IMG/VR virus record: IMGVR_UViG_3300034117_001294
Span: 164,850 to 228,849 of that record
DNA: 64,000 nt
DNA from: a virus
Direction: 5' to 3' (one strand)
In this document: in pieces, positions 10,355 to 48,600 of the stretch
Layout: each line of letters begins with the position of its first letter
Numbering within the stretch: the first letter of the stretch is position 1
Notes under the pieces: generated by a model
The model's database searches: none
The model's input: only the letters and a program-made list of their open reading frames with translations
Told to the model about the DNA's origin: nothing
Translations under genes and position numbers: made by a program

Positions 10355-10855
10355 ATGTTGACAATTATAAAAAATCCAGACCCAATATTGGCTGAAAGAA
10401 TGCCAGAATTTGATTTTGAAAATCCACTAACCGATCCTGTTCAACTTGAAAAAGACATGATTGAAGCTATGCTTGCCAATGGCGGCATTGGATTATCTGC
10501 TAATCAAATAGGTGTTAGAACTCGTATGTTTGTTATGGGACATCAGAAATATCGAGATCATGCACAGGCATTTTTCAATCCAATCATTGCGAGAGTAACA
10601 GACGACTTGCTCGAAGAAGAGGAAGGATGCTTGAGTTTTCCCAACATTTATGCTAAAATAAAAAGACCAAGAGGAATTCTTGTTAGGTTTCAAAACTCAA
10701 AAGGTGAGACCCAAGAAGCTGAATTTTTTGGTTACGAGTGTCGATGCTTTTTACATGAATTTGATCATCTAGAAGGAATCACATTTCAAAATAGAACAAG
10801 TGCTCTCAAGTGGGCGTTGGCAGTAAAGAAATCAATCAAAAGGAAATACAAATAA
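10355..10855 (+). CDS. def: Peptide deformylase
   Basis: A 166-residue metallo-hydrolase that removes the formyl group from new protein N-termini. All three family motifs are intact: GIGLSANQIG at about residues 43-52, EGCLSFP at about 90-96 (metal-binding Cys) and HEFDHLEG at about 134-141 (two metal-binding His and catalytic Glu). Length is that of bacterial and phage deformylases. It is coupled by a TAATG overlap to the ClpA-like gene. It should be an active enzyme. Confidence 0.93.
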   Translation: MLTIIKNPDPILAERMPEFDFENPLTDPVQLEKDMIEAMLANGGIGLSANQIGVRTRMFVMGHQKYRDHAQAFFNPIIARVTDDLLEEEEGCLSFPNIYAKIKRPRGILVRFQNSKGETQEAEFFGYECRCFLHEFDHLEGITFQNRTSALKWALAVKKSIKRKYK

Positions 10856-13125
10856 TGCTGGAACCAAATAACGATCTCGAAGGAATGTTTGAACGTGCGA
10901 TCGAAGTTGCCGCTAAACATAAACATGAGTATATCACGCTGGAACATTTTTTGTACAGTATGATAACTGATGAAAACTTCAAAGGGATGCTAAAAGATTT
11001 TGGTGCCGAAGTTGAGTTGTTAAAGAAGAGTCTCGAAAAGTTTATTCGAGATGATCTTAACGATATTAAAACTGACAAAGAAAATTATCGTCCAAAGAAA
11101 ACAAACACTGTAGAGCGTATGTTGAATCGTGCTTTTACACAAGTGTTGTTTAGCGGCCGTACAGTAATTGAACCAATTGACTGCTTTATTAGTATTTTTA
11201 GTGAAAAGAAGAGCTTTGCTAACTTCTTTCTACGCAAGGCTAAAATTGATAAAGACAAGTTTATTGAATTTCTACATAACAGTGCGTTAAACGAAGACGG
11301 TGAGGCTAGCGAAGTAGGTAGCAATCAACTAGAAAAAATGATTGTTCAATACTGTGCAAACTTAACTAATAGGGTCAAGCAGAAAAAGATTGATCCTGTT
11401 ATCGGTCGTGAGAAAGAAATTGAAGAAATTCAACTTGCACTAGCACGCCGTCAAAAATCAAATGTTATGTTGATCGGCGACCCAGGTGTAGGTAAAACTG
11501 CTATTGCAGAGGGCCTTGCTCGCAAGATTGAAGAAGGCAAGGTTCCTAAGTTTATTCAAGGTCATACTGTTTACAGTCTAGATATCAGTGCATTACTAGC
11601 AGGCAGTAAGTATCGTGGCGACTTTGAAGAACGCTTAAAGATGGTTATTACTGCACTTGAAAAGAAAAAGAACTGTATCTTGTTCATCGACGAAGCACAT
11701 ATGATGAACGGTGCTGGATCAGCAAGTGGCGGATCTAATGACATGGCAAATATGTTGAAACCAGCATTAGGTAAAGGTACTATCAAAGTTGTGGCATCGA
11801 CTACATGGGAAGAATTCCGTAAGCACTTTGAAAAGGATCGTGCCCTGATGCGTCGATTCCAACGTGTTGTAGTTAACGAGCCAGATGAAGCTACTGCTAT
11901 TAAAATCCTTAAAGGTCTTAAGAAGTACTATGAACAGCATCACGGTGTTAAGATCACTAATCAGGCAGTTATTGACAGCGTAAAATATTCTATCAAGTAT
12001 ATGACTGATAAGAAGCTGCCAGATAAAGCAATTGACCTAATTGACTGTGCATGTGCTAGATTCAAAGTCAGAGACGAAGAAGCAGGCATTGTTGATCACG
12101 ATGAAATTTTATTTGAAGTGTCAAAGTTAACTGGCTTACCTTTAGATCAAATTGCACAAAAAGAAAACAAGAATCTTAAAGACCTTGACAAGAACATGCG
12201 TAACAAAGTGTTTGGTCAGGAAACTGCAATTGAAATATTGTTAGATAAAATCTTTATTGCACAAGCAGGTTTAAAGAGCTTAAACAAACCAGTAGGTAGT
12301 TTCCTATTTACAGGACCAACCGGTGTAGGTAAGACTGAAACTGCAAAAGTATTGGCTGCAAGTATGGGAGTAGAACTAGTTCGCTTTGATATGAGTGAAT
12401 TCCAAGAGAAACACTCAATTGCTAAGTTTATTGGTGCTCCCCCCGGCTATATTGGATTTGAAGACAATGCAGGTATGTTGATTACCAAACTGCAAGAGCA
12501 TCCAACTGCTATTTTACTGTTTGATGAAATTGAGAAAGCTCATCCTGATGTTGCTAACTTACTACTACAAATGATGGACAATGGTTATGTTACTGGATCT
12601 AATGGTAAGAAGGCTGATGGTCGAAATGCCATTCTTATCCTTACTAGTAATTTAGGTGCTGCCGATAACGATCGTAATGCAGTTGGATTTAGTAGTTTAG
12701 AAAGAGGTGACGAAACTGATGGTGCAATTAACAGTTTCTTTAAACCAGAATTCCGCAATCGATTAGACGGTATTATCAAGTTTGGTAAACTAGATCACAA
12801 TACCATGGCTAAGATTGTCAAGAAGTTTATTGACGAACTAAACAGTTTGTTGAAAGATAAGAATGTTGCTGTTAAGTTAACTGCTGACGCTGCCGAATTG
12901 TTAATCAAGAAAGGATTTAATCGTAAGATGGGTGCTCGTCCACTACAACGTACAATTGATGATATGATTAAGAAGCCGCTGAGTAAGGAAATTTTATTTG
13001 GTCGGTTAGTAAACGGTGGAGTTGTTGAAGTAGGTGCTAACAGTAATGATCTTACCTTAACTTATCCTGAAATTTTACCCGTAGTAGAAAATGTTGAAAT
13101 TGATAAAGCGACAGAAAGTCGATAA
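10855..13125 (+). CDS. clpA: ClpA-like AAA+ unfoldase
   Basis: A 756-residue Hsp100 unfoldase with an N-terminal Clp_N repeat domain (residues 1-150) and two AAA+ modules: Walker A GDPGVGKT near 208 and GPTGVGKT near 487, with Walker B segments ILFIDEAH and LLFDEIEKAH. There is no long middle coiled coil, so it is ClpA- rather than ClpB-like, and length matches ClpA (758 aa). A V-G-F tripeptide at about 610-612 lies where ClpA carries its ClpP-binding I-G-L loop. The start at 10855 overlaps the deformylase stop; an earlier in-frame ATG at 10810 is inside that gene. Confidence 0.93.
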   Translation: MLEPNNDLEGMFERAIEVAAKHKHEYITLEHFLYSMITDENFKGMLKDFGAEVELLKKSLEKFIRDDLNDIKTDKENYRPKKTNTVERMLNRAFTQVLFSGRTVIEPIDCFISIFSEKKSFANFFLRKAKIDKDKFIEFLHNSALNEDGEASEVGSNQLEKMIVQYCANLTNRVKQKKIDPVIGREKEIEEIQLALARRQKSNVMLIGDPGVGKTAIAEGLARKIEEGKVPKFIQGHTVYSLDISALLAGSKYRGDFEERLKMVITALEKKKNCILFIDEAHMMNGAGSASGGSNDMANMLKPALGKGTIKVVASTTWEEFRKHFEKDRALMRRFQRVVVNEPDEATAIKILKGLKKYYEQHHGVKITNQAVIDSVKYSIKYMTDKKLPDKAIDLIDCACARFKVRDEEAGIVDHDEILFEVSKLTGLPLDQIAQKENKNLKDLDKNMRNKVFGQETAIEILLDKIFIAQAGLKSLNKPVGSFLFTGPTGVGKTETAKVLAASMGVELVRFDMSEFQEKHSIAKFIGAPPGYIGFEDNAGMLITKLQEHPTAILLFDEIEKAHPDVANLLLQMMDNGYVTGSNGKKADGRNAILILTSNLGAADNDRNAVGFSSLERGDETDGAINSFFKPEFRNRLDGIIKFGKLDHNTMAKIVKKFIDELNSLLKDKNVAVKLTADAAELLIKKGFNRKMGARPLQRTIDDMIKKPLSKEILFGRLVNGGVVEVGANSNDLTLTYPEILPVVENVEIDKATESR

Positions 13126-14265: not shown

Positions 14266-14316
14266 CTCTACTAGAGCGTTAGCCTCTCTATTGGTTATAT
14301 TAGGGCCTATAAACAT

Positions 14317-14691
14317 ATGCTATTAAATGAATTCTTTGGACGATTAAACATCAAAAACGACAAGCCGTCGAGAAATGAAGAAACTGACAAACTTCAAGAA
14401 ACACAGATGTTAGAGGATATACTAGAGTATATCATAAATGACGACAATTTGCATAAAAAGGTCTTCTTCCCAATCGCAGAAGAGATTGGAAACAAACCGA
14501 CTGATGAGCATACTCCAAAAGTTTGGATGCCATTGGCAAACAAAGGCTGCATGAAATTTTATCACAAATTTGATCTTAAAGAAGATCCTGTAAAGTTATT
14601 TTCTAAAGAGTTTAGAGAGTCTTTATGCACTCGATTATCAGAACACTATAACGGCGACATTCTCAAAGGCCTATATCAATTAGGAAAATAA
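14317..14691 (+). CDS. Hypothetical protein with targeting-peptide-like N-terminus (124 aa)
   Basis: It begins MLLNEFFGR, similar in pattern to the first residues of other proteins in this cluster and to T4 internal-protein targeting peptides. The rest is a soluble, mainly helical chain (LEDILEYIINDDNLHKKVFFPIAEE) with a conserved-looking core (VWMPLANKGCMKFYHKFDL). One base separates it from the giant multi-domain gene. Function unknown; co-packaging into the head is inferred. Confidence 0.65.
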   Translation: MLLNEFFGRLNIKNDKPSRNEETDKLQETQMLEDILEYIINDDNLHKKVFFPIAEEIGNKPTDEHTPKVWMPLANKGCMKFYHKFDLKEDPVKLFSKEFRESLCTRLSEHYNGDILKGLYQLGK

Positions 14692-14692
14692 A

Positions 14693-17600
14693 ATGAATTT
14701 AAATGAGCTGTTTAGTAACAAAAAGAAAGTTGTGTCAGAAGGTGGAAATTTATCGCTACCTGGCGGGCACGATGCACAGCAAATCGATCTTAAAGTGCAT
14801 AATCGTTCCTACATTGTACCAATTTTAGATACACTGTTGATTAATATCAACAGTTCTTTTGCAAAAAAATACAAAAAACCTTTGTGGAATCCGCAACTAC
14901 TACAGAGTAAACAATTTCTAAGTGGAAGTAGTCTACACTTCTTTAATACCAAAGGTATTACTGACCAACAATTTGTAGAAAAGAAACCAAAAGTAGGCGA
15001 CATTGACACACAGGTCAACAAAGAAAACGAACAAGAATTAGAACAATGGTTATCTGCTAGTCAAGGTAAGATGGTAGGCAATGCCAAGTTCTTAGGTTTC
15101 CAAAGAGGCAACGAACAATTCTCCAGTTTATGGGAGCTACAAGACCCACCTATTAAAGTGCAAATTGACTTAGAATTTGTAGAGTTTGACAAAGACGAAC
15201 CCACTCCATGGAGCAAATTTAGTCATAGCAGCAGCTGGGATGATCTAAACGCAGGAGTTAAGGGTGTATTCCACAAGTTTTTAATTCAAAGTCTAGCATC
15301 ATTAAGTAGAAAAGATTTCTTACTACGCAAAGCTGTAGGACGAGGCAAGGCCAAAGAAATACAAGATGTTCCTACAACTGATAACATGGTCAGCTTTGCA
15401 GTATCCAGTAAAGAAGGCGGCGGCCTACGTGCCAAATACGAACCAGTATTAGATGCAAACGGACAGCCTTTAATTAGTAACGGTATGCCAGTTATGCAGG
15501 CATTACCAGCAACTGGTTACGAACAAGACATTGGAAAGATTTTTGGATCTATCTTTGGTTCGAGATTAAATCCTAAACAAGCTGCACAATTAGAAAGCAA
15601 GTACTGGAGCTTTACTGGTTTAGTTGATGCAATGAATACGCTAGTAACTCCAGAAGAAAAGCAGTCAGTGTTGTCTGCATTTATTGACAAAATATTTGGC
15701 AAGGGTGCCCAAGGTCTTTACAAAGGCGATCCAGAGCGTGATAGTGCAGAAAAATCTGCTGCATTGGATTTAATGATCAATAAATTAGGAGTTCAGACAC
15801 CTAGTGATCTTGAACAGATGAAGCAGCAATACAAGGCATCGTACAGAGTTACTGCTGAAAGTTTGCAAGAAGCAGAAGTTAAAGCACAGTTCCGTAAGAA
15901 CATGCCACACCTACGTGATCTAAAGCCTATTGACTTTTTAGATCTATTGGACGAGATTCACGATGGTAATGGTAATTTTAAATTACAAAACATTCCGTTA
16001 AATGTTAAGATTGACGGATTTGGCGGACGTTTTGGTAAGGATGCAGAAGGCAAGCCTTTTATGGCTACCAGCAATACTCCTCCAAGATATAAAGCAGGAT
16101 TTGTACAATATCATCAAGACAAGGGCACAACTGATCCTGAAATTTTAGGTCGTGCAGAAAAGTTTGATGAACTGTTTAATGAAATGATGAACGCTATCAA
16201 ATTGGTTGATAGCAAGCTAGGTGCAGACTTTCTTGTTAATAAACAGGTCACCTGTGAAGTATTGTTCTTGCCGTTTGCAGCCGAAACGTCAGAGGGCAAA
16301 TTAAAATTTGTAGGAATTCAATACGATAAGTTTCCTCCAGGTGTAGAATTAGTTCTTGTGCCGTTCCGTGTAGTAGATGCTAGTTCCGGAGAAGATGTAC
16401 CTGATGCTAACGATGTTGTTACAAGTCTAAGCAAATTAGGCGGACAAGGAAGTGTTAGATTCCTTAGTAATAGTCTAGTACAAAAAGACGGACTTGATGT
16501 TACTGAGATTATTAATCCTTTAGATAATATCGAAGAACTAAAACAAATTGTATCTGACACAGCAGGCAAAAGAGATCGTGCCAGTTTGCAACTAAGACGC
16601 GAAGTAGAAGAAAAATTAATGCCTGTTAAGATTGCACTGGAAAAGGCAATTGATGCAGATCCTAACATTATTGGCAAAGATATATTAGGTCAAGACTACG
16701 AAGGTATTGTTATCAACAGTCGTCTTGGCCCTATCAAAGTTACTAGCCAACAACAAAAAGATATTATTACCCAAAAGAACGCTGCCAAAGCTGCCGCTCG
16801 TGCAGAACAGCCGCGTGGTGAAAACAAAACTGCGGTAGTTGCTATCGGTAGCTTTGTGGGACACAAAGGTCATCAACAGCTATTTGGTCTTACAATTAAT
16901 AAGGCAAAAGAAGTCAGCGGCGATCCTTATCTGTTTATGGGCAGTGCAGTAGGTGCAGACGATCCTATTCCAGTTGCTGACAAAATTAAAACTTGGAAAC
17001 AATTGTATCCCGAGTATGCAGGCAATATCAGTGCTGTAACACAAGAGGGCGGATCTTTGATGCAAAAGATCAAGCACGAGTTAATCAACCCGTTGCCAGG
17101 CAAGCCACCACGCTACGATAATGTTATTATTATGGTAGGTGAAGATCAGGCCAAGATGCCTATCGCACAGGCCCTAATGAAGGCAGTTAATAAGTTTCCT
17201 GGATACGAGCATGTTAAGGTACAATTAGAAGTTACTCCTAGAGGAACTGGCATGAGCTTTACTAAGCTACGTAACGTGTTAAAAACTGGAGATGAGCAAC
17301 AAGCATTCCAAATGTGGAATGATGCATTCAATGGCGGCCAGGATGGAGCAAAACCATTACCGTCACAATGGATTAAACATTTAATGGATGTGTCAAAGAC
17401 CGGAATGAGCACACCTCAACCAAAGCCAGCAGTTAAGAAGCCTGCTGTACTACCTACTCCGCAGACTGTTCAACAACCTGCACTAGGTGAAATGAGATTG
17501 TTTAATGCACTAATGAGTCCTAAAAAAATTGTAAATGAAAAGACTATTGAAGAACGTAAACGTAAAAAAAGTAAAGGTGCAGCATGGGGTCCAGGGCCAT

Positions 17601-19501
17601 ATGGTTGGTACGGATTTGATGCAGGTTATAGTGGTAACGGTGGAGATGGTGGTAGTGATGGTGGTGAGAGCATGAATCAAGAAAACTTTGCTGATAGTCG
17701 TAATCCACAAGACAACAGCAACAGTAAACGGCAAATGTTAAAAATTGCATCATTAAACAATATTAAAGATGTGAACAAAATTAATGCAGGGCAGATGTTA
17801 AAATTGCCTAACGGCACAACTTATAAAGTAATGCCTGGAGATACCCTGTCTACAATTGCGGCAAGACAAGTGAAAGATCAATCTTCTCCAATGCCCCAAC
17901 CCTCAGTTAAACAAGGTCCAAACTCTAACATAGATCAAACGACAAGAGATAAAGCACAGGCATTTGTTGGTCAACAAAAACCAGAAATGGGTGGTGGCAG
18001 GGGGGTCGTTAATCCAGCAACCGTCCGGCCCGACGAACCAACCCAAACCGGAGTTCGAAGTGGTCCTAACACAAACATAGATCAACCAGCAAGAGATAGG
18101 GCCAAAGCGGCTGTTACTAAAATTTCTAGTGAAGACGATATCATGAATATGGTTAAAGATCATGAAGGTGTAAAAAATAAACCATACCAAGATACAAAAG
18201 GATTATGGACTGTAGGAGTAGGTCACTTAATTGGTGATGGCAAGACTCTCCCTTCAGAGTGGAAAAGAACATTTTCAGACGCAGAAATAATGAATCTGTT
18301 TAAAAAGGATTATCAGCATCATAAACAGGCAGCAGAAAAAATTCCTGGATTTAGTAATTTAAACATGAACGGACAGGCTGCTCTAATTGATCTAACATTT
18401 AACATGGGTCCAAGATGGTGGAAGGCTTGGCCTAATTTTACAAAAGCCATGCAAGCAGGAAACATAGATCAAGCAGCAAATGCATTAAAAAATAGTGCAT
18501 GGTATTCACAAGTTGGTAGAAGAGCACCTAAAATTGTATCTCTTTTACAGAGCGGAGATCGATCTGTAGCAGAAAACTTTGCGGATGGACGTAATCCACA
18601 AGACAAGGGCGACAGTAAACGTCACGGCGTTCCTACAAAATCGTCAGTGAGCAATCTACGTAAAGTAGCTAAACAAGGCGGCCGTAAAGGACAATTAGCA
18701 CATTGGATGGCAAATATGAAAGCAGGTAAAGCAAAAGCTAAGAATGAAGACTTCAACGGCGAATACGACGACGAAGCAGGAATGGCACAGAGTAATCTAC
18801 GCACAATGGCTCGTGCAGTTGATGGTTTATTAAAAACTATTAAGAGCAACGATAACTTGCCAGAATGGGGACAAGAAAAGATTGCCAAAGCAGAAATGAT
18901 GTTGGTCAGTGTCTGGGATTATTTGTTAAGCCAAAAAGAAATGGGCATGGATCCTAAGATCAACGAAAGCAAGGCTGTAGAAAGTTTAAGACAGATTGTC
19001 GCAGAGTTGTCCAATGAAAAATTAGGACAATATAAAAAGGCCGCCGGTGATCAAGCAACTGCCGCAGACAAAGCGGGCGACTATGCTAAGGGTCATAAAC
19101 GTTTCAAAGGAATTGTTAAAGCAACTAACAAGCAGTTTGATAATGATGCTAAAAAGCATAGAGAGCAAGGTATGGCGGAGGCTGGCAGCAATGCTATAGA
19201 TACTGTATCTAAACGCTTAACTGATCCTAAAGATGGAATGACAGCCAAACTTAGAGCAGCTGGTGATAAGAAACGCGATAGTCAGTACATGGGCACACAG
19301 ATTGCTAAGAATGATCGAACCAGTAAAGACGAATGGGGCAACTTAAAAGAAAAGATTAAAGGTGCAGACGGCAAAGCCTGTTGGAAAGGTTATAAGTACG
19401 CAGGTACTAAGAACGGTAAAGACAAGTGTGTGCCAATTGGCGAAGCCTACGAACTTGAAATGACCCTGGCTATTCTAAAGCTGTTTGAAAGTAATAAATG
19501 A
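14693..19501 (+). CDS. Multi-domain putative internal head protein with nucleotidyltransferase, LysM and T4-type lysozyme domains
   Basis: A 1602-residue mosaic. Residues 1-700 form a large region I do not recognise, starting MNLNELFSNKKK. About 710-910 is an HxGH nucleotidyltransferase fold (GSFVGHKGHQQL). A Gly-rich linker is near 985, a LysM-like segment (YKVMPGDTLSTIAARQ) near 1045-1060, and a GH24 lysozyme at about 1142-1295, with E, D and T in HEG-x6-QDTKGLWTVGVGH at T4 lysozyme spacing. Two 50-bp direct repeats flank the LysM-lysozyme block. The basic C-terminus has a GMAEA linker near 1495. A packaged, ejected polyprotein that opens the wall is inferred. Confidence 0.75.
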   Translation: MNLNELFSNKKKVVSEGGNLSLPGGHDAQQIDLKVHNRSYIVPILDTLLININSSFAKKYKKPLWNPQLLQSKQFLSGSSLHFFNTKGITDQQFVEKKPKVGDIDTQVNKENEQELEQWLSASQGKMVGNAKFLGFQRGNEQFSSLWELQDPPIKVQIDLEFVEFDKDEPTPWSKFSHSSSWDDLNAGVKGVFHKFLIQSLASLSRKDFLLRKAVGRGKAKEIQDVPTTDNMVSFAVSSKEGGGLRAKYEPVLDANGQPLISNGMPVMQALPATGYEQDIGKIFGSIFGSRLNPKQAAQLESKYWSFTGLVDAMNTLVTPEEKQSVLSAFIDKIFGKGAQGLYKGDPERDSAEKSAALDLMINKLGVQTPSDLEQMKQQYKASYRVTAESLQEAEVKAQFRKNMPHLRDLKPIDFLDLLDEIHDGNGNFKLQNIPLNVKIDGFGGRFGKDAEGKPFMATSNTPPRYKAGFVQYHQDKGTTDPEILGRAEKFDELFNEMMNAIKLVDSKLGADFLVNKQVTCEVLFLPFAAETSEGKLKFVGIQYDKFPPGVELVLVPFRVVDASSGEDVPDANDVVTSLSKLGGQGSVRFLSNSLVQKDGLDVTEIINPLDNIEELKQIVSDTAGKRDRASLQLRREVEEKLMPVKIALEKAIDADPNIIGKDILGQDYEGIVINSRLGPIKVTSQQQKDIITQKNAAKAAARAEQPRGENKTAVVAIGSFVGHKGHQQLFGLTINKAKEVSGDPYLFMGSAVGADDPIPVADKIKTWKQLYPEYAGNISAVTQEGGSLMQKIKHELINPLPGKPPRYDNVIIMVGEDQAKMPIAQALMKAVNKFPGYEHVKVQLEVTPRGTGMSFTKLRNVLKTGDEQQAFQMWNDAFNGGQDGAKPLPSQWIKHLMDVSKTGMSTPQPKPAVKKPAVLPTPQTVQQPALGEMRLFNALMSPKKIVNEKTIEERKRKKSKGAAWGPGPYGWYGFDAGYSGNGGDGGSDGGESMNQENFADSRNPQDNSNSKRQMLKIASLNNIKDVNKINAGQMLKLPNGTTYKVMPGDTLSTIAARQVKDQSSPMPQPSVKQGPNSNIDQTTRDKAQAFVGQQKPEMGGGRGVVNPATVRPDEPTQTGVRSGPNTNIDQPARDRAKAAVTKISSEDDIMNMVKDHEGVKNKPYQDTKGLWTVGVGHLIGDGKTLPSEWKRTFSDAEIMNLFKKDYQHHKQAAEKIPGFSNLNMNGQAALIDLTFNMGPRWWKAWPNFTKAMQAGNIDQAANALKNSAWYSQVGRRAPKIVSLLQSGDRSVAENFADGRNPQDKGDSKRHGVPTKSSVSNLRKVAKQGGRKGQLAHWMANMKAGKAKAKNEDFNGEYDDEAGMAQSNLRTMARAVDGLLKTIKSNDNLPEWGQEKIAKAEMMLVSVWDYLLSQKEMGMDPKINESKAVESLRQIVAELSNEKLGQYKKAAGDQATAADKAGDYAKGHKRFKGIVKATNKQFDNDAKKHREQGMAEAGSNAIDTVSKRLTDPKDGMTAKLRAAGDKKRDSQYMGTQIAKNDRTSKDEWGNLKEKIKGADGKACWKGYKYAGTKNGKDKCVPIGEAYELEMTLAILKLFESNK
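17681..17730 (+). repeat. 50-bp direct repeat, copy A (left of LysM-lysozyme block)
   Basis: Encodes ENFADSRNPQD and following residues. It differs from copy B at about six of 50 bases. The copies lie exactly 891 bases (297 codons) apart, in frame. Confidence 0.85.
18572..18621 (+). repeat. 50-bp direct repeat, copy B (right of LysM-lysozyme block)
   Basis: Encodes ENFADGRNPQD and following residues, in the same frame as copy A. Together the copies bracket the LysM and lysozyme domains as a cassette. Confidence 0.85.
19164..19181 (+). repeat. GVAE-type short repeat, variant copy in the 1602-aa gene
   Basis: AGCAAGGTATGGCGGAGG encodes the QGMAEA linker. It differs by one base from the copies in the gene at 20141. 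Confidence 0.7.
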
Positions 19502-19764
19502 AGCAATATCGAATAGCAGGATTTCCTGTAGATACTTCAACTGATCCAGACTGTGCTCTAAGCCCAGATGATCCTATACATGCACTACAATCTAGTAACT
19601 GGTTAGGAGAGTTAGGTGCAGAACAGCGTATGCGTGAATACTTAAAAAAGAGAGACACACCTTTGCATAGTCAGCACGGTAATGAAAATGCTCGCATAAT
19701 GCGTGAACAAGGAATTAAACCGGGTACACCGGCTTGGTTCGAACTTTGGTTTGGTAAAAAATAA
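19498..19764 (+). CDS. Hypothetical protein (88 aa)
   Basis: It overlaps the giant gene by four bases (ATGA). The sequence is soluble and has a distinctive ALSPDDPIHALQSSNWLGEL segment and a C-terminal PAWFELWFGKK. It lies within the putative internal-protein cluster but its N-terminus (MKQYRIAGF) does not fit the targeting-peptide pattern well. No function recognised. Confidence 0.65.
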   Translation: MKQYRIAGFPVDTSTDPDCALSPDDPIHALQSSNWLGELGAEQRMREYLKKRDTPLHSQHGNENARIMREQGIKPGTPAWFELWFGKK

Positions 19765-19772
19765 ATAACATT

Positions 19773-20144
19773 ATGAGAGCAAAAGAATTCATCGCTGAAA
19801 GAAAAGAAGGTAAGATAACAAAACGTCAGCAACAATCTACTAGGGGTCTGCATCGTTATTCAGACGCCGAAAAAGCAGATAGCGGTTATGTTAGCTTTAG
19901 AGTAGGCATGGCCGCAGCTATGAGCGATGGAAAAAATAAATTAGACATCGATTCAAAGAGTTGGGCAGGAAAGAAAAAGACTGCACATCCTTACACTCAA
20001 GTGGAAGCAGACATGCTCAAAGCAGCATACAAAGCTGCCGGTGCCAGTTATGAAGATATGAATCACGGCGATATGGATAGTTGCGAGTTAGACTCGACTA
20101 ATATATACGGGCCTGTACCAGATAGAAAGAAACTAACAAAATGA
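19773..20144 (+). CDS. Putative internal head protein with T4-like targeting peptide (123 aa)
   Basis: The N-terminus MRAKEFIAE closely resembles the T4 internal-protein targeting peptide MKTYQEFIAE, which the T4 prohead protease removes after its final Glu. The remaining chain is basic at first (RKEGKITKRQQQSTRG) and then mixed, with no catalytic motif. Small basic proteins of this sort are what T4 packs with its DNA. It overlaps the next gene by four bases. Assignment as an internal protein is inference from the N-terminus and cluster. Confidence 0.65.
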   Translation: MRAKEFIAERKEGKITKRQQQSTRGLHRYSDAEKADSGYVSFRVGMAAAMSDGKNKLDIDSKSWAGKKKTAHPYTQVEADMLKAAYKAAGASYEDMNHGDMDSCELDSTNIYGPVPDRKKLTK

Positions 20145-21328
20145 GAATTAAACAACTTTTAGAATCAGCAACTACTGGAGGCACAAGCTCAGCATCAGTA
20201 GCAACAGTTGCAAAAGGCAGTAAGGGAATGATTAAACGTCAGAAACCTACTGACAATGCATTGGATAGTGGAAAGTTGTTTCAAGAAACTAACGCTGCGG
20301 AAGGCAAGGAAGATAAGATTGCTCAACTAAAGAAAGACCATGACACCGCAGTGCATTGGAGCAAGAATGAAACAAGCCCACAAAAGCGTGAGGCTGCTCG
20401 TCAAAAGGCTGAAAAGATCAAGCGTCACTTAGATACACAATACAAGCAAGGTGTGGCGGAGGTTAGTGATGCTACGCTAACCAGTTATCTAACAAAATTA
20501 GATAAAGATAATCTTAAACACAGAATGGATCCCACAAAACGCAGTGACACAAAACGCATGAAAAGTGGTCCTAATTTTGTTAAAGCGTTTACCAAATTGG
20601 ATAATAAAAAGCAAGGTGTGGCGGAGGCCACAGGTGACGAAAAATTTGATAAATCAATGAGAAAAATGACTGGAAAAATTACTCCAGGCGATGCTGACGA
20701 GATGTGGCCGACACAAGAATTTGAACCAGTTGATCTTGATCCATCATACTTGCCAAGTATGGAAAAATACAAGGCAAAATTATTTCCATTGGCTTACCAA
20801 TACTGGACTGACGGCGACAATGCAGATGAATTAAGAGCATTAGGATGGGAACCCGATTATGGCGACGACTATGTTATGGTGGTGCTGTCTGGCATCGGAC
20901 ACGACGGTCACATTCAATACGACAAATATGATTTTGATGCTGAAGATGAAAACAATGAAGGTGTGGCGGAGGTAGCACCGCCGGGAGCCAAAGCCGAACG
21001 CATGGTCAAGCATATTAAAAAGGGATATGCTAAAGATGGTAAGTTAACTAAAACTGAAAAAAGCAAGGCATACGGTGCTGCATGGAAAGCACACAATGCC
21101 GGCAAAGTAGAAGAACAAAGTGTAGAAGAAAACAAGAAAGGTGTACGTGCTGTGAAACATGCAGTTAAGCCTAGAAACTTTGTTGCCAAGAACGCAGTAC
21201 AAAGTGGTGCAGGTGCTCACAAAGATAAAAAGAAAGCACAAAAGCAAGGTGATGTAAAACACAAGGCTAAAGAGCCAGCTTACGAATCTAAGCTATGGGC
21301 AGCATTAGATCGAAGAATTATCAAGTAA
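20141..21328 (+). CDS. Modular basic protein with GVAE linkers, putative internal head protein
   Basis: A 395-residue lysine-rich protein starting MRIKQLLESATT. It is made of short modules joined by a repeated linker: YKQGVAEV near residue 105, KKQGVAEA near 160 and NEGVAEV near 275. Between the second and third linkers is an acidic domain (EFEPVDLDPSYLPSMEKYKA); the C-terminus is very basic (AHKDKKKAQKQGDVKHKAKE) and suited to binding DNA. The linkers are conserved at DNA level with unusual codons. Each could be a prohead protease site (Glu followed by a small residue). No enzyme motif seen. Confidence 0.65.
   Translation: MRIKQLLESATTGGTSSASVATVAKGSKGMIKRQKPTDNALDSGKLFQETNAAEGKEDKIAQLKKDHDTAVHWSKNETSPQKREAARQKAEKIKRHLDTQYKQGVAEVSDATLTSYLTKLDKDNLKHRMDPTKRSDTKRMKSGPNFVKAFTKLDNKKQGVAEATGDEKFDKSMRKMTGKITPGDADEMWPTQEFEPVDLDPSYLPSMEKYKAKLFPLAYQYWTDGDNADELRALGWEPDYGDDYVMVVLSGIGHDGHIQYDKYDFDAEDENNEGVAEVAPPGAKAERMVKHIKKGYAKDGKLTKTEKSKAYGAAWKAHNAGKVEEQSVEENKKGVRAVKHAVKPRNFVAKNAVQSGAGAHKDKKKAQKQGDVKHKAKEPAYESKLWAALDRRIIK
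20444..20462 (+). repeat. GVAE-type short repeat, copy 1
   Basis: AAGCAAGGTGTGGCGGAGG, encoding KQGVAEV, is identical over 19 bases to copy 2. Confidence 0.8.
20609..20627 (+). repeat. GVAE-type short repeat, copy 2
   Basis: A 19-base identical copy, encoding KQGVAEA, 165 bases (55 codons) downstream of copy 1 in the same frame. Confidence 0.8.
20958..20972 (+). repeat. GVAE-type short repeat, copy 3
   Basis: AAGGTGTGGCGGAGG, encoding EGVAEV, matches the other copies over 15 bases and is in the same frame. Confidence 0.75.
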
Positions 21329-21744
21329 TGAAAATCATAGACCTATTAGAGGATGTAAATTCAAAACCTGATTTTATGAAAATACTTCAGGAGTTTCTTC
21401 CCTTTGCAGTCAATGAACTTAAATTAAAATCTGTTCCAAAAATTAAAATGCATTTACGTATTGGCAGCGTAGATGATCAACCTAGTTTTGGTAGTTTTAA
21501 CAGTGAAACTAAAATAATCAATATTGCAATTGAAGATAGACATCCTTTAGATATTTTAAGAACTCTTGCACACGAGATGGTACATTACAAACAAAACGAA
21601 GAAACTGGACTGAAGCCAGGTGCGGGTGCTACCGGTAGCCCTGAAGAAAATCAAGCACACGAACTAGCTGGTATTGTGATGCGTAAATTTAATAAAGCGA
21701 ACCCTGAATTTTTTAATACCGACGCTGTTAATCTAGAAGAATAA
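21328..21744 (+). CDS. HExxH zinc metalloprotease-like protein with targeting-like N-terminus
   Basis: The ATG at 21328 overlaps the previous stop and gives a 138-residue protein beginning MKIIDLLED, the same N-terminal pattern as its neighbours; an earlier ATG at 21295 lies inside the upstream gene. The active-site helix TLAHEMVHYKQNE (HEMVH) and the later PEENQAHELAG segment supply two His, the catalytic Glu and a plausible third ligand, as in SprT-like or short gluzincin peptidases. It may be packaged and act in the host after injection. Substrate unknown. Confidence 0.75.
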   Translation: MKIIDLLEDVNSKPDFMKILQEFLPFAVNELKLKSVPKIKMHLRIGSVDDQPSFGSFNSETKIINIAIEDRHPLDILRTLAHEMVHYKQNEETGLKPGAGATGSPEENQAHELAGIVMRKFNKANPEFFNTDAVNLEE

Positions 21745-23064: not shown

Positions 23065-25734
23065 ATGAGCTACGTCGATTCAATGTGGGATCGCGACAAG
23101 GACGTTATTCGCGTCGTTGAGCGTGATCCCAAAAAAGGCAGAATCTTTCAAGATTATCCTGCCAAATATGTATTATACTACCCAGACTCTAAAGGAAAAT
23201 ATCGTTCAATTTACGGTGATCCTCTTAGCAAAGTTTCTGTCAAAAATTACAAAGAGTTCCAAAAAGAAACCCGAATTCATTCAGGAAAGAAACTCTTTGA
23301 AAATGATATTAATCCTGTATTCCGATGCCTAGAAGAAAACTATTTAGGCAAAGATGCTCCTAAGCTCAATGTAGCATTTTGGGACATTGAAGTAGACTTT
23401 GATCCAGAACGTGGTTACAGTACTCCTGAAGATGCGTTCATGCCAATTACTGCGATTTCTGTCCACCTACAATGGTTAGATACATTAGTATGTCTTGCAG
23501 TCCCCCCAAAGACACTGACAATGGAGCAAGCAGTAGAGCAGGTAAAAGACTTTCCTAACACAATGCTGTTTGAAACAGAATACGAAATGTTGGAAACATT
23601 CCTGGGCTTGATTCAAGATGCAGATATTTTAAGCGGATGGAACAGTGAAGGATACGATATGCCTTATACTGTCAACCGCATCATTAAAGTTCTTAGCAAA
23701 GAAGATACCCGTAGGTTATGTCTATGGGACCAGTTCCCCAAGAAACGGGAGTACGAGAAGTATGGAAAAAAGGCTATTACTTATGATCTTGTTGGTCGTG
23801 TTCATTTGGACAGTCTCGAGTTGTACCGCAAGTACACCTATGAAGAGCGACATACATACCGATTGGATGCAATTGGAGAGATGGAGGTAGGTGAAACTAA
23901 GACGCAGTACGAAGGTACCCTAGATCAATTGTACAACAATGACTTCCGCAAGTTTATTGAATACAACAGGCAAGATACTGCATTGCTGAATAAACTAGAT
24001 AATAAATTAAAATTTATTGACCTAGCAAATACACTAGCACATGAATGTACTGTGTTGTTACAGACCACAATGGGTGCTGTGGCTGTAACTGAGCAGGCCA
24101 TTGTAAATGAAGCTCATCATCGAGGACTAATTGTTCCGGGTCGTCCTAAACGTGATGATGATTTAGAAACACAAGCCGCTGGTGCGTATGTTGCATATCC
24201 TAAGAAAGGATTGCATGACTGGATTGGATCAATGGACATTAACTCATTGTATCCGTCAGCTATTCGTGCATTAAACATGGGACCAGAAACTATTGTTGGG
24301 CAGTTACGTCAATCTTATACCAAAGCTGAAATTGAAGGTAAGATAGCAAAGGGTTCTAGCTTTGCAGCCTCTTGGGAAGGCAAGTTCGGCAGTAACGAAT
24401 ACGAACTTGTCATGGCAAAAGATCGTGTAACTGATATCACAGTTGATTGGGAAGATGGCAGAGTTGATGTGCTAAGTGGGGCTCAAATTTATGAACTGAT
24501 TTTTGAAAGTAATCAGCCGTGGGTTATCTCAGCAAACGGTACTATCTTTACCTATGAGAAAGAAGGGATCATTCCTGGATTGTTGAAACGTTGGTATGCC
24601 GAACGTAAAGAAATGCAGGCAAAATTAAAAGAATGTATTGCATCGGGGAATAAAGTTGAAGAAGAATATTGGGATAAAAGACAGCTGGTTAAAAAGATTA
24701 ACCTTAATAGCTTATACGGTGCTATTCTTAACGCTGGTTGTAGGTTCTTTGATAATCGTATTGGGCAATCCACAACTCTTACTGGTAGACGGATCGCCAG
24801 GCATATGGCTTCGAAAGTAAATGAAGTTATTACTGGAGACTATAACTACACCGGCAAGAGTGTGATATACGGTGATACTGACTCTGTATATTTTAGTGCA
24901 TACACTACTTTAAAAAATGATATCAATAAAGGGGTAATTCCCTGGAACAAAGAAGTTGTCGTTCAACTATACGATACTATCTCTGAAGAAGTAAATGGAA
25001 CATTTCCACAATTTATGTTGGACGATTTTCATTGCCCAAAAACTCGAGGAGATGTTATTAAGGCCGGTCGAGAATTTGTTGCTATCAAAGGCATCTTTAT
25101 GACCAAGAAGCGATACGCTATCTTGTACTTTGACAAGGAAGGTAAGAGGCAAGATATAGATGGCAAGCCAGGTAAAATCAAAGCCATGGGCTTAGATTTG
25201 AAACGTAGTGATACTCCTGAATTTATGCAAAACTTTTTAAGCGAGATTTTAACCAAAGTTCTTAACAATGCTCAAGAAGAAGAAATTCTAGAACGTATCG
25301 GTGAGTTCCGAAGTGAATTCAAACAGAGGCCTGGGTGGGAGAAGGGTAGTCCTAAACGTGCAAATAACATTGCAGAGTATCAGGCCAAAGAAGTCAAAGC
25401 GGGTAGAACCAACATGCCCGGACATGTTCGTGCTAGTATTAATTGGAATACTCTTAAACGTATGAACGGTGACAAATACTCGATGGGTATTGTAGACGGC
25501 ATGAAAGTTATTGTGTGCAAGATGAAAGACAATCCATTAGGATACACTTCAATTGCATATCCAGTTGACGAAATGCGTTTACCGAAATGGTTCCAAGAAC
25601 TTCCGTTTGATCATGGGGAGATGGAGGCAACCATTATTAACAATAAGCTAGAAAACCTTATTGGAGTACTAGAGTGGGATTTAGAATCCACTACACAAAA
25701 TAATACATTCGGCAGTTTATTCAGCTTTGAATAA
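23065..25734 (+). CDS. 43: Family B replicative DNA polymerase, gp43-like
   Basis: An 889-residue polymerase with 3'-5' exonuclease, close to the 898 residues of T4 gp43. Exonuclease site I is FWDIEVDF (D107, E109). Polymerase motif A is SMDINSLYPS (Asp near 391), motif B is KKINLNSLYGA near 542, and motif C is YGDTDS (D604, D606). All catalytic acids are present. No intein, intron or split is seen. Its leader carries two tandem hairpins with matching loops, suggesting translational self-control as in T4. Confidence 0.96.
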   Translation: MSYVDSMWDRDKDVIRVVERDPKKGRIFQDYPAKYVLYYPDSKGKYRSIYGDPLSKVSVKNYKEFQKETRIHSGKKLFENDINPVFRCLEENYLGKDAPKLNVAFWDIEVDFDPERGYSTPEDAFMPITAISVHLQWLDTLVCLAVPPKTLTMEQAVEQVKDFPNTMLFETEYEMLETFLGLIQDADILSGWNSEGYDMPYTVNRIIKVLSKEDTRRLCLWDQFPKKREYEKYGKKAITYDLVGRVHLDSLELYRKYTYEERHTYRLDAIGEMEVGETKTQYEGTLDQLYNNDFRKFIEYNRQDTALLNKLDNKLKFIDLANTLAHECTVLLQTTMGAVAVTEQAIVNEAHHRGLIVPGRPKRDDDLETQAAGAYVAYPKKGLHDWIGSMDINSLYPSAIRALNMGPETIVGQLRQSYTKAEIEGKIAKGSSFAASWEGKFGSNEYELVMAKDRVTDITVDWEDGRVDVLSGAQIYELIFESNQPWVISANGTIFTYEKEGIIPGLLKRWYAERKEMQAKLKECIASGNKVEEEYWDKRQLVKKINLNSLYGAILNAGCRFFDNRIGQSTTLTGRRIARHMASKVNEVITGDYNYTGKSVIYGDTDSVYFSAYTTLKNDINKGVIPWNKEVVVQLYDTISEEVNGTFPQFMLDDFHCPKTRGDVIKAGREFVAIKGIFMTKKRYAILYFDKEGKRQDIDGKPGKIKAMGLDLKRSDTPEFMQNFLSEILTKVLNNAQEEEILERIGEFRSEFKQRPGWEKGSPKRANNIAEYQAKEVKAGRTNMPGHVRASINWNTLKRMNGDKYSMGIVDGMKVIVCKMKDNPLGYTSIAYPVDEMRLPKWFQELPFDHGEMEATIINNKLENLIGVLEWDLESTTQNNTFGSLFSFE

Positions 25735-44127: not shown

Positions 44128-46350
44128 TTATAGGTCTCTTCTAATAATCCACGATGTGAATGTTGATGTTGTTGCAGTATTGTATGCAGCGGTTACATTA
44201 ACTGTTAAGTTAGTTCCTGAATATTCAGAAATTGTTCCCTGTAGGTAGTTAACCTGTGTATCAGTTTCTCTAATTGTTATGCTAGTGCCGGTACTGAATA
44301 TGCTGCCCCATAATGTTGGGAAGCTATAAATTGTAGAACTACTTTTGTTAACTGTGAAAGTTTTTAATCCTGTAGTTAGAGTAGATGCACTATCAGATGT
44401 TAGATATGTAGTATCAACATCTTCAATAAATGTCCAGTAACCTGCAATAACTGCAAACAATTTTACAGTTCTAACAATACGAGGCATAGGAGTAGCAATT
44501 GTTACATTACCTGCTAATTCAAAGTCGGTAACTAGTAGTGTAGATGTACTTGTTATTGTATTAATAAACGAAGTAGTTGTTGAAGTTGCTGTGTAATCGA
44601 TTCCAGTAACAATATTAAATAATTTTCTAACGGTAGAAGTGTTTAAGTTATTCAACAAATATGTTGCAGTAGTAGCTTCATACTTGGTACATAATATAGT
44701 ACATCTAGCACCGTCAGGCTGAACATAATAAGGATCACCAAAACCGTCAACTGGCAACGTAACATCTAGTATTGCAATAATATCTTCATTTACTGTGTCA
44801 AAATCAGTTATATCGATGGCTAATGTATATGGCTTTCTAGCACTATAACCACCTAATGCACCAGCAAGTCGTCCTTCAAAGTATCCCTTAGACACTGCGG
44901 TGTCATCTGTGTCAAGGTCAATTGTGGCTGCTAGGCCAACAATCTTGTTAGAATTATCTAAATTAACGTAACCACTAGACGGAGTTAAATATAAATCAGT
45001 TAACGGTGTTGAAACTGTTGTGATATTTTTATCGTAGATAACAACACTAGAAACAGTCAGTCCTTGAAGAACTGGTAAATTAATTAATCCTGGAGCAAAC
45101 TTAACTGATGAACTTAATTTGTAGTCAGCAGCACCTGCCCATTCTAATACAGGAACCCCCGCAATTTTATAAGATCCAGAAGTAGTTAAAGTGTCAATGC
45201 CAATATTAGATTGCCACGAATCAGACGAATCGTTAAACACCCAAAGTTTGTCAGTAGTACCATGCAGTGTAATGCCGCCGCCGTCAATAAAAGCATCGGT
45301 TGCAGTAGTTTGACCAGTTGCAAGTTCGATATTTTTATCTTCAATTCGCATAAATGTAGTTTCTACACTTACCTGTGTACCAAGTACTGTTAAGTTTCCA
45401 GAAATATTTACATCTCCGGCAATGTCTACATCAACTGTAGGATTTCGTTTGAAAATTCCAATTCGATCATTATCAGAATCAATATGAATTGCCACTGCAT
45501 CAGTACCAGTAGTTACACTATTATATCTAATTTCTAAAGGTTCACCCTGTATTGTGCCACGGATTACACTAGTAACTACACCAGTATTGTCAACTAATAT
45601 TTCAACATTTGAATTTGTTCCAACTGAAATACCGTTATCGTTAACAAAATCAAATTTACCAGTAATTTCTGTTGAAGAATTTGATCTTAATACACTATCA
45701 AGACTAACACCCTGAATACTTTCTGCACTAGTTGCTACACCATAAAATTTAGCACCAATTGCACTGTTAATCATTAGACCAGATCTAATAGTGCTAGTAC
45801 CTAAAGCAATTGCTGTTAATGTTTCAGGTTGAAGAGAAATAGTTGATGTAGACATCACTGCCCAACGAACACCCTGGCTATAGAAAATAGACAGCTCGTG
45901 ATCGAAACCTGAACTGTCTGATATTGTATCTACGAACCACCCTTCTTTACCTACGCTGTCAGAATATTGTTTAGCAGCAAGTTGCCAAACTGTTCCGTCA
46001 TACCATTTTAATAAATTGTCAGTAGTATCCACCCACAAATCGCCGCGGACTACTCCAGCTGGTTCAGTTGTGCTTATAATCGGAGCACCAACTGGTTTGA
46101 ATGTGCCTGTTGAATAAACTTTTAGTCGACCCTCGCTTGTATCAAACCATGTTTGTCCCACAACAGGACTAGACGGTTCAATTAAGTTTGAAAAGTTTTC
46201 AAGTAACGAAACAAAATTAGCGTTAACATATTGTCCGTAATTATTAACATTCTTACCTACTAAAGTTATGCTAGTTGACACGTCGTCAATTGATTGATCA
46301 GCTACTACTGCTAATGTTTTTCCGTTTGTAAATTTAATCGTATATGACAT
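44128..46350 (-). CDS. Tail-fibre-type protein 2 of a paralogous set (740 aa)
   Basis: Starts with the shared module (SITLVGKNVNNYGQYVNANF; GQTWFDTSEGRLKVYSTG; GDLWVDTTDNLLKWYDGT). Residues around 310-345 contain GDVNISGNLTVLGTQVSVET and EDKNIELATGQ, a pattern common in trimeric phage fibres. The C-terminal half is Thr/Ser-rich beta sequence and its end (LTVNVTAAYNTATTSTFTSW) differs from the 459- and 540-residue proteins. A fibre shaft plus distinct tip is likely. Confidence 0.78.
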   Translation of the reverse strand: MSYTIKFTNGKTLAVVADQSIDDVSTSITLVGKNVNNYGQYVNANFVSLLENFSNLIEPSSPVVGQTWFDTSEGRLKVYSTGTFKPVGAPIISTTEPAGVVRGDLWVDTTDNLLKWYDGTVWQLAAKQYSDSVGKEGWFVDTISDSSGFDHELSIFYSQGVRWAVMSTSTISLQPETLTAIALGTSTIRSGLMINSAIGAKFYGVATSAESIQGVSLDSVLRSNSSTEITGKFDFVNDNGISVGTNSNVEILVDNTGVVTSVIRGTIQGEPLEIRYNSVTTGTDAVAIHIDSDNDRIGIFKRNPTVDVDIAGDVNISGNLTVLGTQVSVETTFMRIEDKNIELATGQTTATDAFIDGGGITLHGTTDKLWVFNDSSDSWQSNIGIDTLTTSGSYKIAGVPVLEWAGAADYKLSSSVKFAPGLINLPVLQGLTVSSVVIYDKNITTVSTPLTDLYLTPSSGYVNLDNSNKIVGLAATIDLDTDDTAVSKGYFEGRLAGALGGYSARKPYTLAIDITDFDTVNEDIIAILDVTLPVDGFGDPYYVQPDGARCTILCTKYEATTATYLLNNLNTSTVRKLFNIVTGIDYTATSTTTSFINTITSTSTLLVTDFELAGNVTIATPMPRIVRTVKLFAVIAGYWTFIEDVDTTYLTSDSASTLTTGLKTFTVNKSSSTIYSFPTLWGSIFSTGTSITIRETDTQVNYLQGTISEYSGTNLTVNVTAAYNTATTSTFTSWIIRRDL

Positions 46351-46356
46351 AACTTA

Positions 46357-48600
46357 TTAGGCCTTGATAATATAATTCATAGCATGGAACGGATTCATTA
46401 CAGTAGTTACCATGCCTGTTGCAGTTCCGCCAAAGCCCGGAGTCGGATACGGAAACTGTTGCGAGAATGAAGTTGCAGTCATAGTAGCAGTAGTCGATCC
46501 GCCAACTACTCGAGGTGCTGTTCCTTGGGATGCTAAGAAACTATTAGGTGTATTTGCTCCTACTACTCTATTTGCAGTTCCTCCACTACTGGTAAGTCCG
46601 TTGGTCATGTTATCATAACCAATAATTGTTCTTCCTCGTAGATCGGGCAATCTAAACTGACCGTTAACTAATGTCTTACCATAAGTGTATCCGATTGCTG
46701 CAAATAGGGCAGGATAGTCTGTGCGGCCAACAACCGCACCATCACAAAATAACCATCCTTTGCTTAAAGGTGTTGCAGGATTTGGTTTTTCAATTCCGGC
46801 ATATGGCATAATTGTACCAGGCGGAATTAAGAAATCTAACACACTGGACAATAAAGCGTCTCTACTAGCCTTAGCTAGACCAGTAACTCCTGTACCCGAA
46901 ACTGCTGTAAACAATGCAGTATTTGTTGGGGCACTACCCAAAACATTAACACTCGGTATGGTTATCGACATGTCGTTGATATTGTTTTCGCCGCCTAACA
47001 ATGTTCCGGGAACTGTTAATACATCGTTAGCAAGATAGTTAGTTCCGCTATTTGCAACTCTGTCAATAATATATGTTCCAGCAGCTTGACGAGTAATATC
47101 AAATGCAATGCCGCTACCAGAGCCCCCGTTAGCAGGTATTGAAACAAAACTAACACTCTTAACAGCTACTAATAATTCATCAGTTGATGCAACACTGGTA
47201 ACTGTGCTTCTTGAAGTAATTGCATTAGCCTGCAATTGAGTTGTAAAAGTTCTAGTTTCACTTGTTCCGCCATAGGTAATACCTGCACTATATATATCGC
47301 CGGCCATTGTAAACGTTGCAGAAGATGCTAATCTAGTTGCTACTGTGGATGTTCCATCAAGTGTTCCTTTAAATACAGCACTGTGTACTTCTTTAAATGA
47401 CTTGGTAACAGATCCTAATGTATAAACATTGTGAACTGCTGGTTGAATAATTTCTTTAGAGAATAAAGAAGTATCAGTAACTGTATTTCCTATTTTAATC
47501 CCATTAAAAAATGTAGATGTTGAATTAAATGTTGCAGTACTACTGAACGAAGTGTTCTTACCAAATGCAACTGCACCTGAAATAGTCAATGCATCGTCAG
47601 CATTAGTAGTAATTGTGACAGTTCCGGAAAATCTAGCACTACCAGTAACATCTAAAGTAAATTGAGGATTAGGAGTGTTTATTCCTATTCTTTTATTTTC
47701 TCCTTGGATAGTTAAAATTTCGTTATAAATTTCACTTTCATCAACAACTTGAAATGCAAATGTTCCATTGAGTTTACTGTTGACAAATTTATTTTTAAAT
47801 GTGCCTTCCTTTTGAATTAAGAAAGTAGGGTCAACTCCTAATGTAAAGCCGTTCTTGGCGTTCAATACTCCATTGATAGATGTATCGATATCATTACGAA
47901 CAAAATAATTTCCACTAATAACACCTCGAGTAGGTGTAGTTACAATAAGATTCTGTGCTGCATAAGCAGTAGAATTTAAAATTGCAGAATTGACTGCTGT
48001 TAAATTGAGACCAGCTTTGATTGATTCAAACCCGTCAATCTTAATCTGTGGAGTAAATTGTTCAGGACTAATAATTTCTACAATGTTGCCGTCAACATAG
48101 TTTGCAATAATTTTATGACCAACACCTACAGTATCTAAGACCGTTTCTGCAATTGGTCCAGACTTACTGCTGCCGTCAACTGCCGGGCCTACTAATATCC
48201 ATTCACTGTTTTCGTTCTTAACTTTTAACTGGAACGTAGTTGTATCTACCCAGATATCACCAGTAACTGCTTCTGGGGGTTCTGAAGACTCTTGATACAC
48301 TCCGTTAATTGATTTCCAATTTGCACCGTTCGCGGTACCATCATTAATTTTTAATTTGTAATTAGCATTGTCGTACCAAAGCTGTCCTTCAATAGGATTA
48401 TTTGGAGGAGTGCTGTTAGCATGATTTTCTAGCAAGTGTAAGAAATTAGAGGCAAAGTCATATGCATAGCCTGAAGCATTTTTTCCAACTAGTGTTAGAC
48501 TAGTAGAATAATTATTTCCAGGATTTCCAGGAAGACCATCATCAACTAGAATAGCACTGCTATACTTTGTAGGATCAGAAAAATAAACTGTATAGGCCAT
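46357..48600 (-). CDS. Tail-fibre-type protein 1 with tail collar domain (747 aa)
   Basis: Carries the shared N-terminal module (SLTLVGKNASGYAYDFASNF; GQLWYDNANYKLKINDGT) and a long beta-rich shaft. Near the C-terminus is a phage tail collar domain: IPPGTIMPYAGIEKPNPATP, KGWLFCDG and GQFRLPDLRGRTIIGYD. Collar domains occur in short- and long-tail-fibre proteins such as T4 gp12. This marks the set as receptor-binding tail parts. It is followed by the 740-residue paralogue after six bases. Confidence 0.87.
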   Translation of the reverse strand: MAYTVYFSDPTKYSSAILVDDGLPGNPGNNYSTSLTLVGKNASGYAYDFASNFLHLLENHANSTPPNNPIEGQLWYDNANYKLKINDGTANGANWKSINGVYQESSEPPEAVTGDIWVDTTTFQLKVKNENSEWILVGPAVDGSSKSGPIAETVLDTVGVGHKIIANYVDGNIVEIISPEQFTPQIKIDGFESIKAGLNLTAVNSAILNSTAYAAQNLIVTTPTRGVISGNYFVRNDIDTSINGVLNAKNGFTLGVDPTFLIQKEGTFKNKFVNSKLNGTFAFQVVDESEIYNEILTIQGENKRIGINTPNPQFTLDVTGSARFSGTVTITTNADDALTISGAVAFGKNTSFSSTATFNSTSTFFNGIKIGNTVTDTSLFSKEIIQPAVHNVYTLGSVTKSFKEVHSAVFKGTLDGTSTVATRLASSATFTMAGDIYSAGITYGGTSETRTFTTQLQANAITSRSTVTSVASTDELLVAVKSVSFVSIPANGGSGSGIAFDITRQAAGTYIIDRVANSGTNYLANDVLTVPGTLLGGENNINDMSITIPSVNVLGSAPTNTALFTAVSGTGVTGLAKASRDALLSSVLDFLIPPGTIMPYAGIEKPNPATPLSKGWLFCDGAVVGRTDYPALFAAIGYTYGKTLVNGQFRLPDLRGRTIIGYDNMTNGLTSSGGTANRVVGANTPNSFLASQGTAPRVVGGSTTATMTATSFSQQFPYPTPGFGGTATGMVTTVMNPFHAMNYIIKA

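Follow-up and report, generated by a model that had tools for sequence, protein, structure and literature searches.

CTS-like leaders and protease-type joints in a predicted cargo locus of an uncultured T4-like phage

Organisation of the locus and of the phage

The DNA analysed here, referred to as the window, covers 64,000 nucleotides and is the final 64 kb of a 228.8-kb IMG/VR record (G000) that terminates inside a gene of the tail-fibre region. The phage group is uncultured and T4-like, and no near DNA relative was found among cultured phages. Between positions 14317 and 21744, leader-type N-termini are present in five of six genes, namely MLLNEFFGR (14317), MNLNELFSN (14693), MRAKEFIAE (19773), MRIKQLLES (20141), and MKIIDLLED (21328), and the predicted cargo proteins are mosaics of modules that meet at short segments, the joints. 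The features are listed below, with a slash marking a predicted cut; CTS stands for capsid-targeting sequence.

14317..14691, + strand: 124-aa protein, CTS-like N-terminus MLLNEFFGR with no Glu at position 9 (sequence)
14693..19501, + strand: predicted cargo polyprotein of 1602 aa, leader MNLNELFSN (domain matches; the identical sequence on contigs from three further IMG/VR records)
14693..14740, + strand: predicted capsid-targeting propeptide MNLNELFSNKKKVVSE, predicted cut before GGN (comparison with relatives)
14741..15805, + strand: nucleotidyltransferase-like domain, GSS...GDID (phrog_19290 E 8e-23; fold match weak)
15950..16792, + strand: ATP-dependent-ligase-like domain, KIDG ... DYEGIV ... 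K (motifs alone; KxDG and EGIV conserved in alignment)
16817..17227, + strand: cytidylyltransferase-like domain, GSFVGHKGH ... TGMSFTKLR (alignment, fold match)
17672..17683, + strand: joint MNQE/ before NFADSRNPQDN, then LysM (sequence)
18155..18529, + strand: T4-type phage lysozyme domain (PF00959 Phage_lysozyme E 1e-15; PDB T4 lysozyme E 1e-12)
18563..18574, + strand: joint SVAE/ (sequence)
18575..18748, + strand: 58-aa basic module NFADGRNPQDKGDSKRHG...KNE (pI 10.8; three predicted helices; model pLDDT 72)
19166..19180, + strand: joint QGMAE/, CAAGGTATGGCGGAG (sequence)
19498..19764, + strand: 88-aa gene without leader (ORF)
19773..20144, + strand: 123-aa basic protein, leader MRAKEFIAE/ (sequence)
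20141..21328, + strand: 395-aa polyprotein, leader MRIKQLLE/, three joints of the QGVAE or EGVAE type (sequence)
20447..20461, + strand: joint QGVAE, CAAGGTGTGGCGGAG (sequence)
20462..20626, + strand: cassette VSDATLTS...NKKQGVAE, joint at both ends (DNA 96.7% identical to a cassette in contig L122)
20612..20626, + strand: joint QGVAE, CAAGGTGTGGCGGAG (sequence)
20957..20971, + strand: joint EGVAE, GAAGGTGTGGCGGAG, then cyanophage-like module VAPPGAKAERMVKHIKK (sequence)
21328..21744, + strand: 138-aa HExxH metallopeptidase-like protein, leader MKIIDLLED (motif HEMVHYKQ)

The five N-terminal peptides of the original prediction are thus in place, the last one requiring the start at 21328: a longer open reading frame from 21295 extends it by MGSIRSKNYQV, which is probably untranslated because the 21328 start overlaps the preceding stop. 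The lysozyme-bearing giant was confirmed by the lysozyme match and by LysM (Pfam E 1e-6, residues 1017-1039). The metalloprotease retains a real HEMVHYKQ motif with weak family matches (E 0.015-0.025), and the description of the cargo as basic applies to three of the five leader proteins (pI 9.2, 9.3, and 9.3), the other two being acidic (pI 5.8 and 5.4). No relative of the 123-aa protein was found in the phage collection. Elsewhere in the window, a gene for a ClpA/ClpB-like AAA+ ATPase, recognised by sequence motifs, lies upstream of the cluster (10810-13125), and a minus-strand open reading frame of 4,170 aa occupies 51407-63919, in the tail-fibre region at the record end.

The first domain of the giant starts with GGN. 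Within the clade of the window this GGN comes after VVSE, NLLE, PLFE, or PISE; Campylobacter phage CP220 has MKLSELMFILE before it, and in Vibrio phage Va1 the same domain is a solo protein starting with MGGN immediately after the ribosome-binding site. Set against the solo MGGN, E/GGN places the [VIL]xE end of the added leader precisely where the domain natively begins, a coincidence regarded as the strongest single argument for the predicted cleavage. Homologues of this nucleotidyltransferase-like domain occur in Vibrio, Campylobacter, and Xanthomonas phages, and the ligase-like domain is encoded by solo genes in phage X1 and cyanophages. Since several domains of the giant are separate neighbouring genes in phage X1 and cyanophages, their fusion into a single addressed polypeptide may be derived in the lineage of the window. 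The AlphaFold model of residues 17-870 is mostly of low confidence (mean pLDDT 56), so that the cytidylyltransferase fold alone was accepted from it, with PPAT and NadD as best Foldseek matches (prob 1.00, E 2e-3). The giant also contains further small modules; the 58-aa basic one, absent from 50,697 phage records, is the sole segment in common for most IMG/VR relatives among the matches listed. The metallopeptidase-like protein, a separate adjacent gene in the window, has a relative fused upstream of GGN in contig L012, and its C-terminus, ...AVNLEE followed by the stop, equals the site preceding NFADG in relatives (DDAVDLEE/NFADG).

The head genes are supplied by another contig, G002 (IMGVR_UViG_3300042519_000373), which is 100% identical to the window at 4693-29498 (24.8 kb) and 57693-64000 (6.3 kb) and encodes beyond it a portal, a small core protein, an acidic core protein, gp21, gp22, and gp23; gp21 was named by Pfam and the others by gene order and sequence. 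The small open reading frame between the portal and the core protein starts with MLLNEFIYFN, to be compared with MLLNEFFGR. Searches of G000 gave no match for gp21, gp23, or portal because this record stops in a tail-fibre gene ahead of the head genes. The prohead protease gene on which the original prediction had been made to depend is encoded on G002, the contig continuing the window (gp21 of 211 aa, Peptidase_S77 E 3e-26, with T4 as positive control). The gp23 of G002 contains NTRKYLAE/SATAG, with YLKE/NA in relatives, and the clade conserves YL[AK]E/[STN]A at what we take to be the place of the T4 gp23 cut. Peptidase_S77 is encoded by 8 of 12 long joint-bearing contigs and was not found on the other four nor on most of a set of 16, all of which may be fragments.

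N-terminal leaders

T4 gp21 cleaves after L/I-X-E, and for head targeting the N-terminal 10 residues of T4 IPIII are enough (PMC9026906). The leader pattern searched in the phage, M.[ALIVMF].[EDQ][FLM][FLIV], starts 12 of 321 called genes (13 of about 322 when the 21328 start is counted), where internal positions of these proteins predict 0.86 (p about 1e-10), and the signal is gone when the comparison point is moved by at least one residue. With the defining five excluded, the search elsewhere in the genome suggested by the original prediction still recovered 8 of 316 genes (p = 2.8e-6), and five matches among six adjacent genes correspond to p about 3e-7. Further examples are MRAREFLLRE, MRAREFLKES, and MRAHEFINE elsewhere in the record and, close to the head genes, MKIIELVE.

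In related contigs the pattern is found on 122 of 1,427 unique proteins, taken from loci that have the giant protein, or a module of it, in common, against 3.9 expected. The strict form MRAxEF[ILV] is a protein start 34 times, with xRAxEF[ILV] internal only 4 times in 360,000 residues; in the commonest form, MRAxEF[ILV]xE, Glu is at position 9 in 31 of the 34, though not demanded by the search. The proteins carrying the leader are mutually unrelated and include a Zeta-toxin-type kinase (L046), a cytidylyltransferase (L013), and a GNAT-like protein (L022). Among the five leaders of the window, the [LI]-x-E end is clear in three; MLLNEFFGR and MNLNELFSN have no Glu at the usual place, the latter reaching such an end only at residue 16 (VVSE) and the former having none. 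The broad pattern is present on 44% of joint-bearing genes vs 18% of other genes, and many joint-bearing genes are without a recognisable leader.

The original prediction is partly supported. Capsid targeting agrees well with the comparisons, in which dozens of unrelated proteins have the leader with Glu at the predicted cut and [VIL]xE/ is present also at internal positions. The late-type promoter boxes said to precede the cluster were not found: exact copies of TATAAATA on the + strand are confined to 5400 and 39933, and a CTATAAA begins at 14307, 10 bases ahead of the ATG.

Other recurrent termini were observed. A second N-terminus, M[TN]NEFKK, recurs on joint-bearing proteins without the MRAxEF leader at several loci (e.g., L054, L141, L187, and L276) and is perhaps another address. 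A Fe/Mn superoxide dismutase (Pfam E 5e-22; G000 23889-24437, L088 3889-4437) has an N-terminal extension, MTYSFIRHVLQE/, ahead of its usual start and is possibly a further head-packaged cargo. Five tandem small proteins, otherwise unlike, share the C-terminus MF[I/L/M]LRW[S/A/L] (G000 46299-47521, L089 6299-7521), and a sixth small protein (G000 98283-98576) ends in TFFMLKWG.

Internal joints as protein and as DNA

The internal joints and the exchange of cassettes at them are the larger feature of these proteins and were missing from the original prediction. Six recurring modules have 83 different left contexts with Glu at P1 in all 83 and a hydrophobic P3 in 73, in agreement with the T4 gp21 consensus [LI]xE; the module starts were set knowing that Glu precedes, so this Glu could count as the module's own residue. 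In particular, the 49 distinct left contexts of NFADGRNP all have Glu at P1, and P3 is hydrophobic in 82% vs 26% for background, while P2 and P4-P8 are not hydrophobic; the five other modules gave the same P1 and P3 outcome. The P3 signal over unrelated upstream sequences favours the reading as a protease site. P3 at the joints is often Val, whereas T4 prefers Leu or Ile. For the NFADG module no significant fold match and no Pfam family were found. Among internal 4-mers of leader-bearing proteins, GVAE ranks first (39 vs 3.4 expected, with the D and K controls near 1.3x). Cargo proteins show no internal enrichment of [LIVM]xE in general (ratio 0.84), so that the joints alone stand out; the usual distance from joint to joint is 45-80 residues.

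It appears unlikely that these are packaged polyvalent proteins whose joints are cut after injection by the HExxH metallopeptidase of the cluster, rather than by gp21 in the head. Zincin-like peptidases have been proposed to process polyvalent proteins (Iyer et al., PMC5512222), and a metallopeptidase is present in the cluster and fused to the polyprotein in L012; however, the joint consensus [VIL]xE fits T4 gp21 and the gp23 site of the clade, and the same consensus ends the leader, for which, if it is a CTS, cutting has to take place in the prohead.

QGVAE, the commonest joint, is nearly fixed as DNA too, in the form CAAGGTGTGGCGGAR, with CAA in 46/46, GGT in 41/46, GTG in 35/46, and GCG in 41/46 copies, GCG being 7% of Ala codons. 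In 74 nonredundant contexts, for whose selection the protein sequence alone was used, the 15 bases of the joint and the next base have high information, which drops to near zero outside. The conserved NFADG module varies freely at synonymous sites, which argues that conservation of the joint is not general DNA similarity. A 21-base version of the joint occurs in at least 120 viral stretches vs a single place in bacterial and archaeal genomes totalling 257 Gb, this lone match, in a deaminase-like gene, looking like chance. In DNA comparisons among joint-bearing genes, alignments end on the right at a joint in 123 of 334 cases vs 26 at random and on the left in 131 of 385 vs 23; homology thus breaks at joints about five times above chance, counts that, like the others given here, rest on metagenomic contigs sharing habitats and on a simple home-made gene caller, and the protein-level breakpoint test concurs with that on DNA. 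In addition, 11 joint-to-joint segments of 83-97% identity, including window 20462-20626, are flanked by otherwise differing neighbours, a pattern which indicates that whole cassettes have been transferred from joint to joint.

The breakpoints and the conservation down to the wobble bases would also be expected if the joints were uncut and QGVAE were a neutral linker, kept as homology where modules recombine. This explanation is nevertheless improbable, since joints with unrelated DNA hold the same protein consensus (68 non-GVAE contexts, with Glu at P1 in all), and a pure DNA element would be expected also out of frame or antisense, yet the QGVAE frame of the longest ORF holds 280/280 joint copies at the loci among the IMG/VR matches listed. 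The wobble conservation could instead reflect translation, through a pause or a signal from rare codons where one folding unit gives way to the next, as the excess of the rare GCG may suggest; we hold this to be quite improbable, because the other conserved codons (CAA, GGT, and GAA) are not rare, the breakpoints match the joints, and cassettes with 83-97% identical DNA sit between unrelated neighbours. Finally, chance or a generic amphipathic start helix as the source of the N-terminal likeness, together with mosaics as assembly artefacts, is hardly credible, even though the pattern is short and was picked after looking and the contigs are metagenomic: the leader excess persists without the defining five and in the relatives, the giant gene is 100% identical across three other contigs, the joint is always in frame among the matches listed, and its 16 bp are below the k-mer length usual in assembly.

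A related observation concerns NFADSRNPQDN (window 17684) and NFADGRNPVKF (L039 3019), which change to other sequences right past the module start (to LysM in the window), as if NFADGRNP itself were a second exchange joint.

Proposed model, known systems, and significance

The reading we consider probable is that of CTS-addressed cargo polyproteins processed by the prohead protease and diversified by cassette exchange. The cluster would be the cargo locus of an uncultured T4-like phage, in which the N-terminal 8-16 residues of each protein act as a capsid-targeting sequence pulling it into the prohead core; gp21 would then cut after [V/I/L/M/F]-x-E, removing the leader and splitting the large proteins at internal joints. 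The released domains (nucleotidyltransferase, ligase-like, cytidylyltransferase, lysozyme, and small basic modules) would exit the head with the DNA, and whole-cassette exchange, mainly at the 15-16 bp in-frame site CAAGGTGTGGCGGAR(G) encoding QGVAE, would keep the set variable over the phage group. The model proceeds from features read directly in the sequences (leader, joints and their consensus, protease gene, mosaic breakpoints, and DNA-level conservation) to the packaging and targeting, cleavage, injection, and host action of the cargo and to recombination as the process that keeps the joint conserved as DNA, all of which we infer from them. More tentatively, and with a chance that we place slightly below even, injected proteins carried in the head would be diversified, in a widespread group of phages, by cassette exchange at a 16-bp in-frame DNA joint which at the same time encodes the cut site of the prohead protease. 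With one site serving for exchange and for cutting, any exchange would automatically give a new set of separately released effectors.

The cluster likely functions like the T4 CTS cargo system, judging from its sequences. As for T4 IPI-III and Alt, a leader of about 10 residues (T4 MKTYQEFIAE, here MRAKEFIAE) is common to unrelated proteins, some cargo is basic, Glu is at P1 with a hydrophobic P3, and a gp21-family protease is in the genome; in contrast to T4, there are many more cargo genes, a giant multidomain cargo with internal joints, and cassette shuffling. No cargo homology to IPI-III or Alt was found among PHROGs or Pfam matches, which places the cargo outside these families, with a targeting that would work like a CTS. 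In cyanophages, a solo protein with the GAKxERMVKHIKK module starts with MKTFKQFREE (S-RSM4) or MKTFKQLREE (S-WAM2), near the T4 peptide. Campylobacter phage CP220 has a leader-bearing homologue, CPT_0100, with GGNTTT as its predicted new N-terminus; the 11 gel bands identified for the CP220 virion do not include it, and CPT_0103, a virion protein encoded nearby, is without leader.

The cluster agrees as well with the concept of polyvalent proteins (Iyer et al. 2017, PMC5512222), which are predicted to be injected and, like the 1602-aa protein, combine several disparate domains in one polypeptide, with lysozyme, NTase, GNAT, and metallopeptidase as domain types in common. The predicted processing enzyme is different, a zincin being proposed there while the sites here fit the prohead protease, and the CTS-like leader and DNA-conserved joints are features of the present cluster. 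Ejection proteins of SPN3US and phiKZ are head proteins similarly cut by a gp21-related protease before ejection; in SPN3US, however, the site is A-X-E, the propeptides are mostly long and N-terminal, and no modular joints are reported (PMC10052503). The A-X-E motif of the phiKZ group was not found here, P3 being V/I/L/M/F and P2 often A.

An open-text literature search with the terms used found no description of such a joint or cargo system. If the model is true, the few known T4 internal proteins would become part of a delivery system of general use, whose address and cut site can be recognised in sequences. Head packaging could then be predicted for hundreds of phage proteins of unknown role, and these could be divided into testable units. 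Many such cargo proteins would perhaps act against host defences, and the joint would be a rare case of one short sequence serving both evolution, through exchange, and function, through processing.
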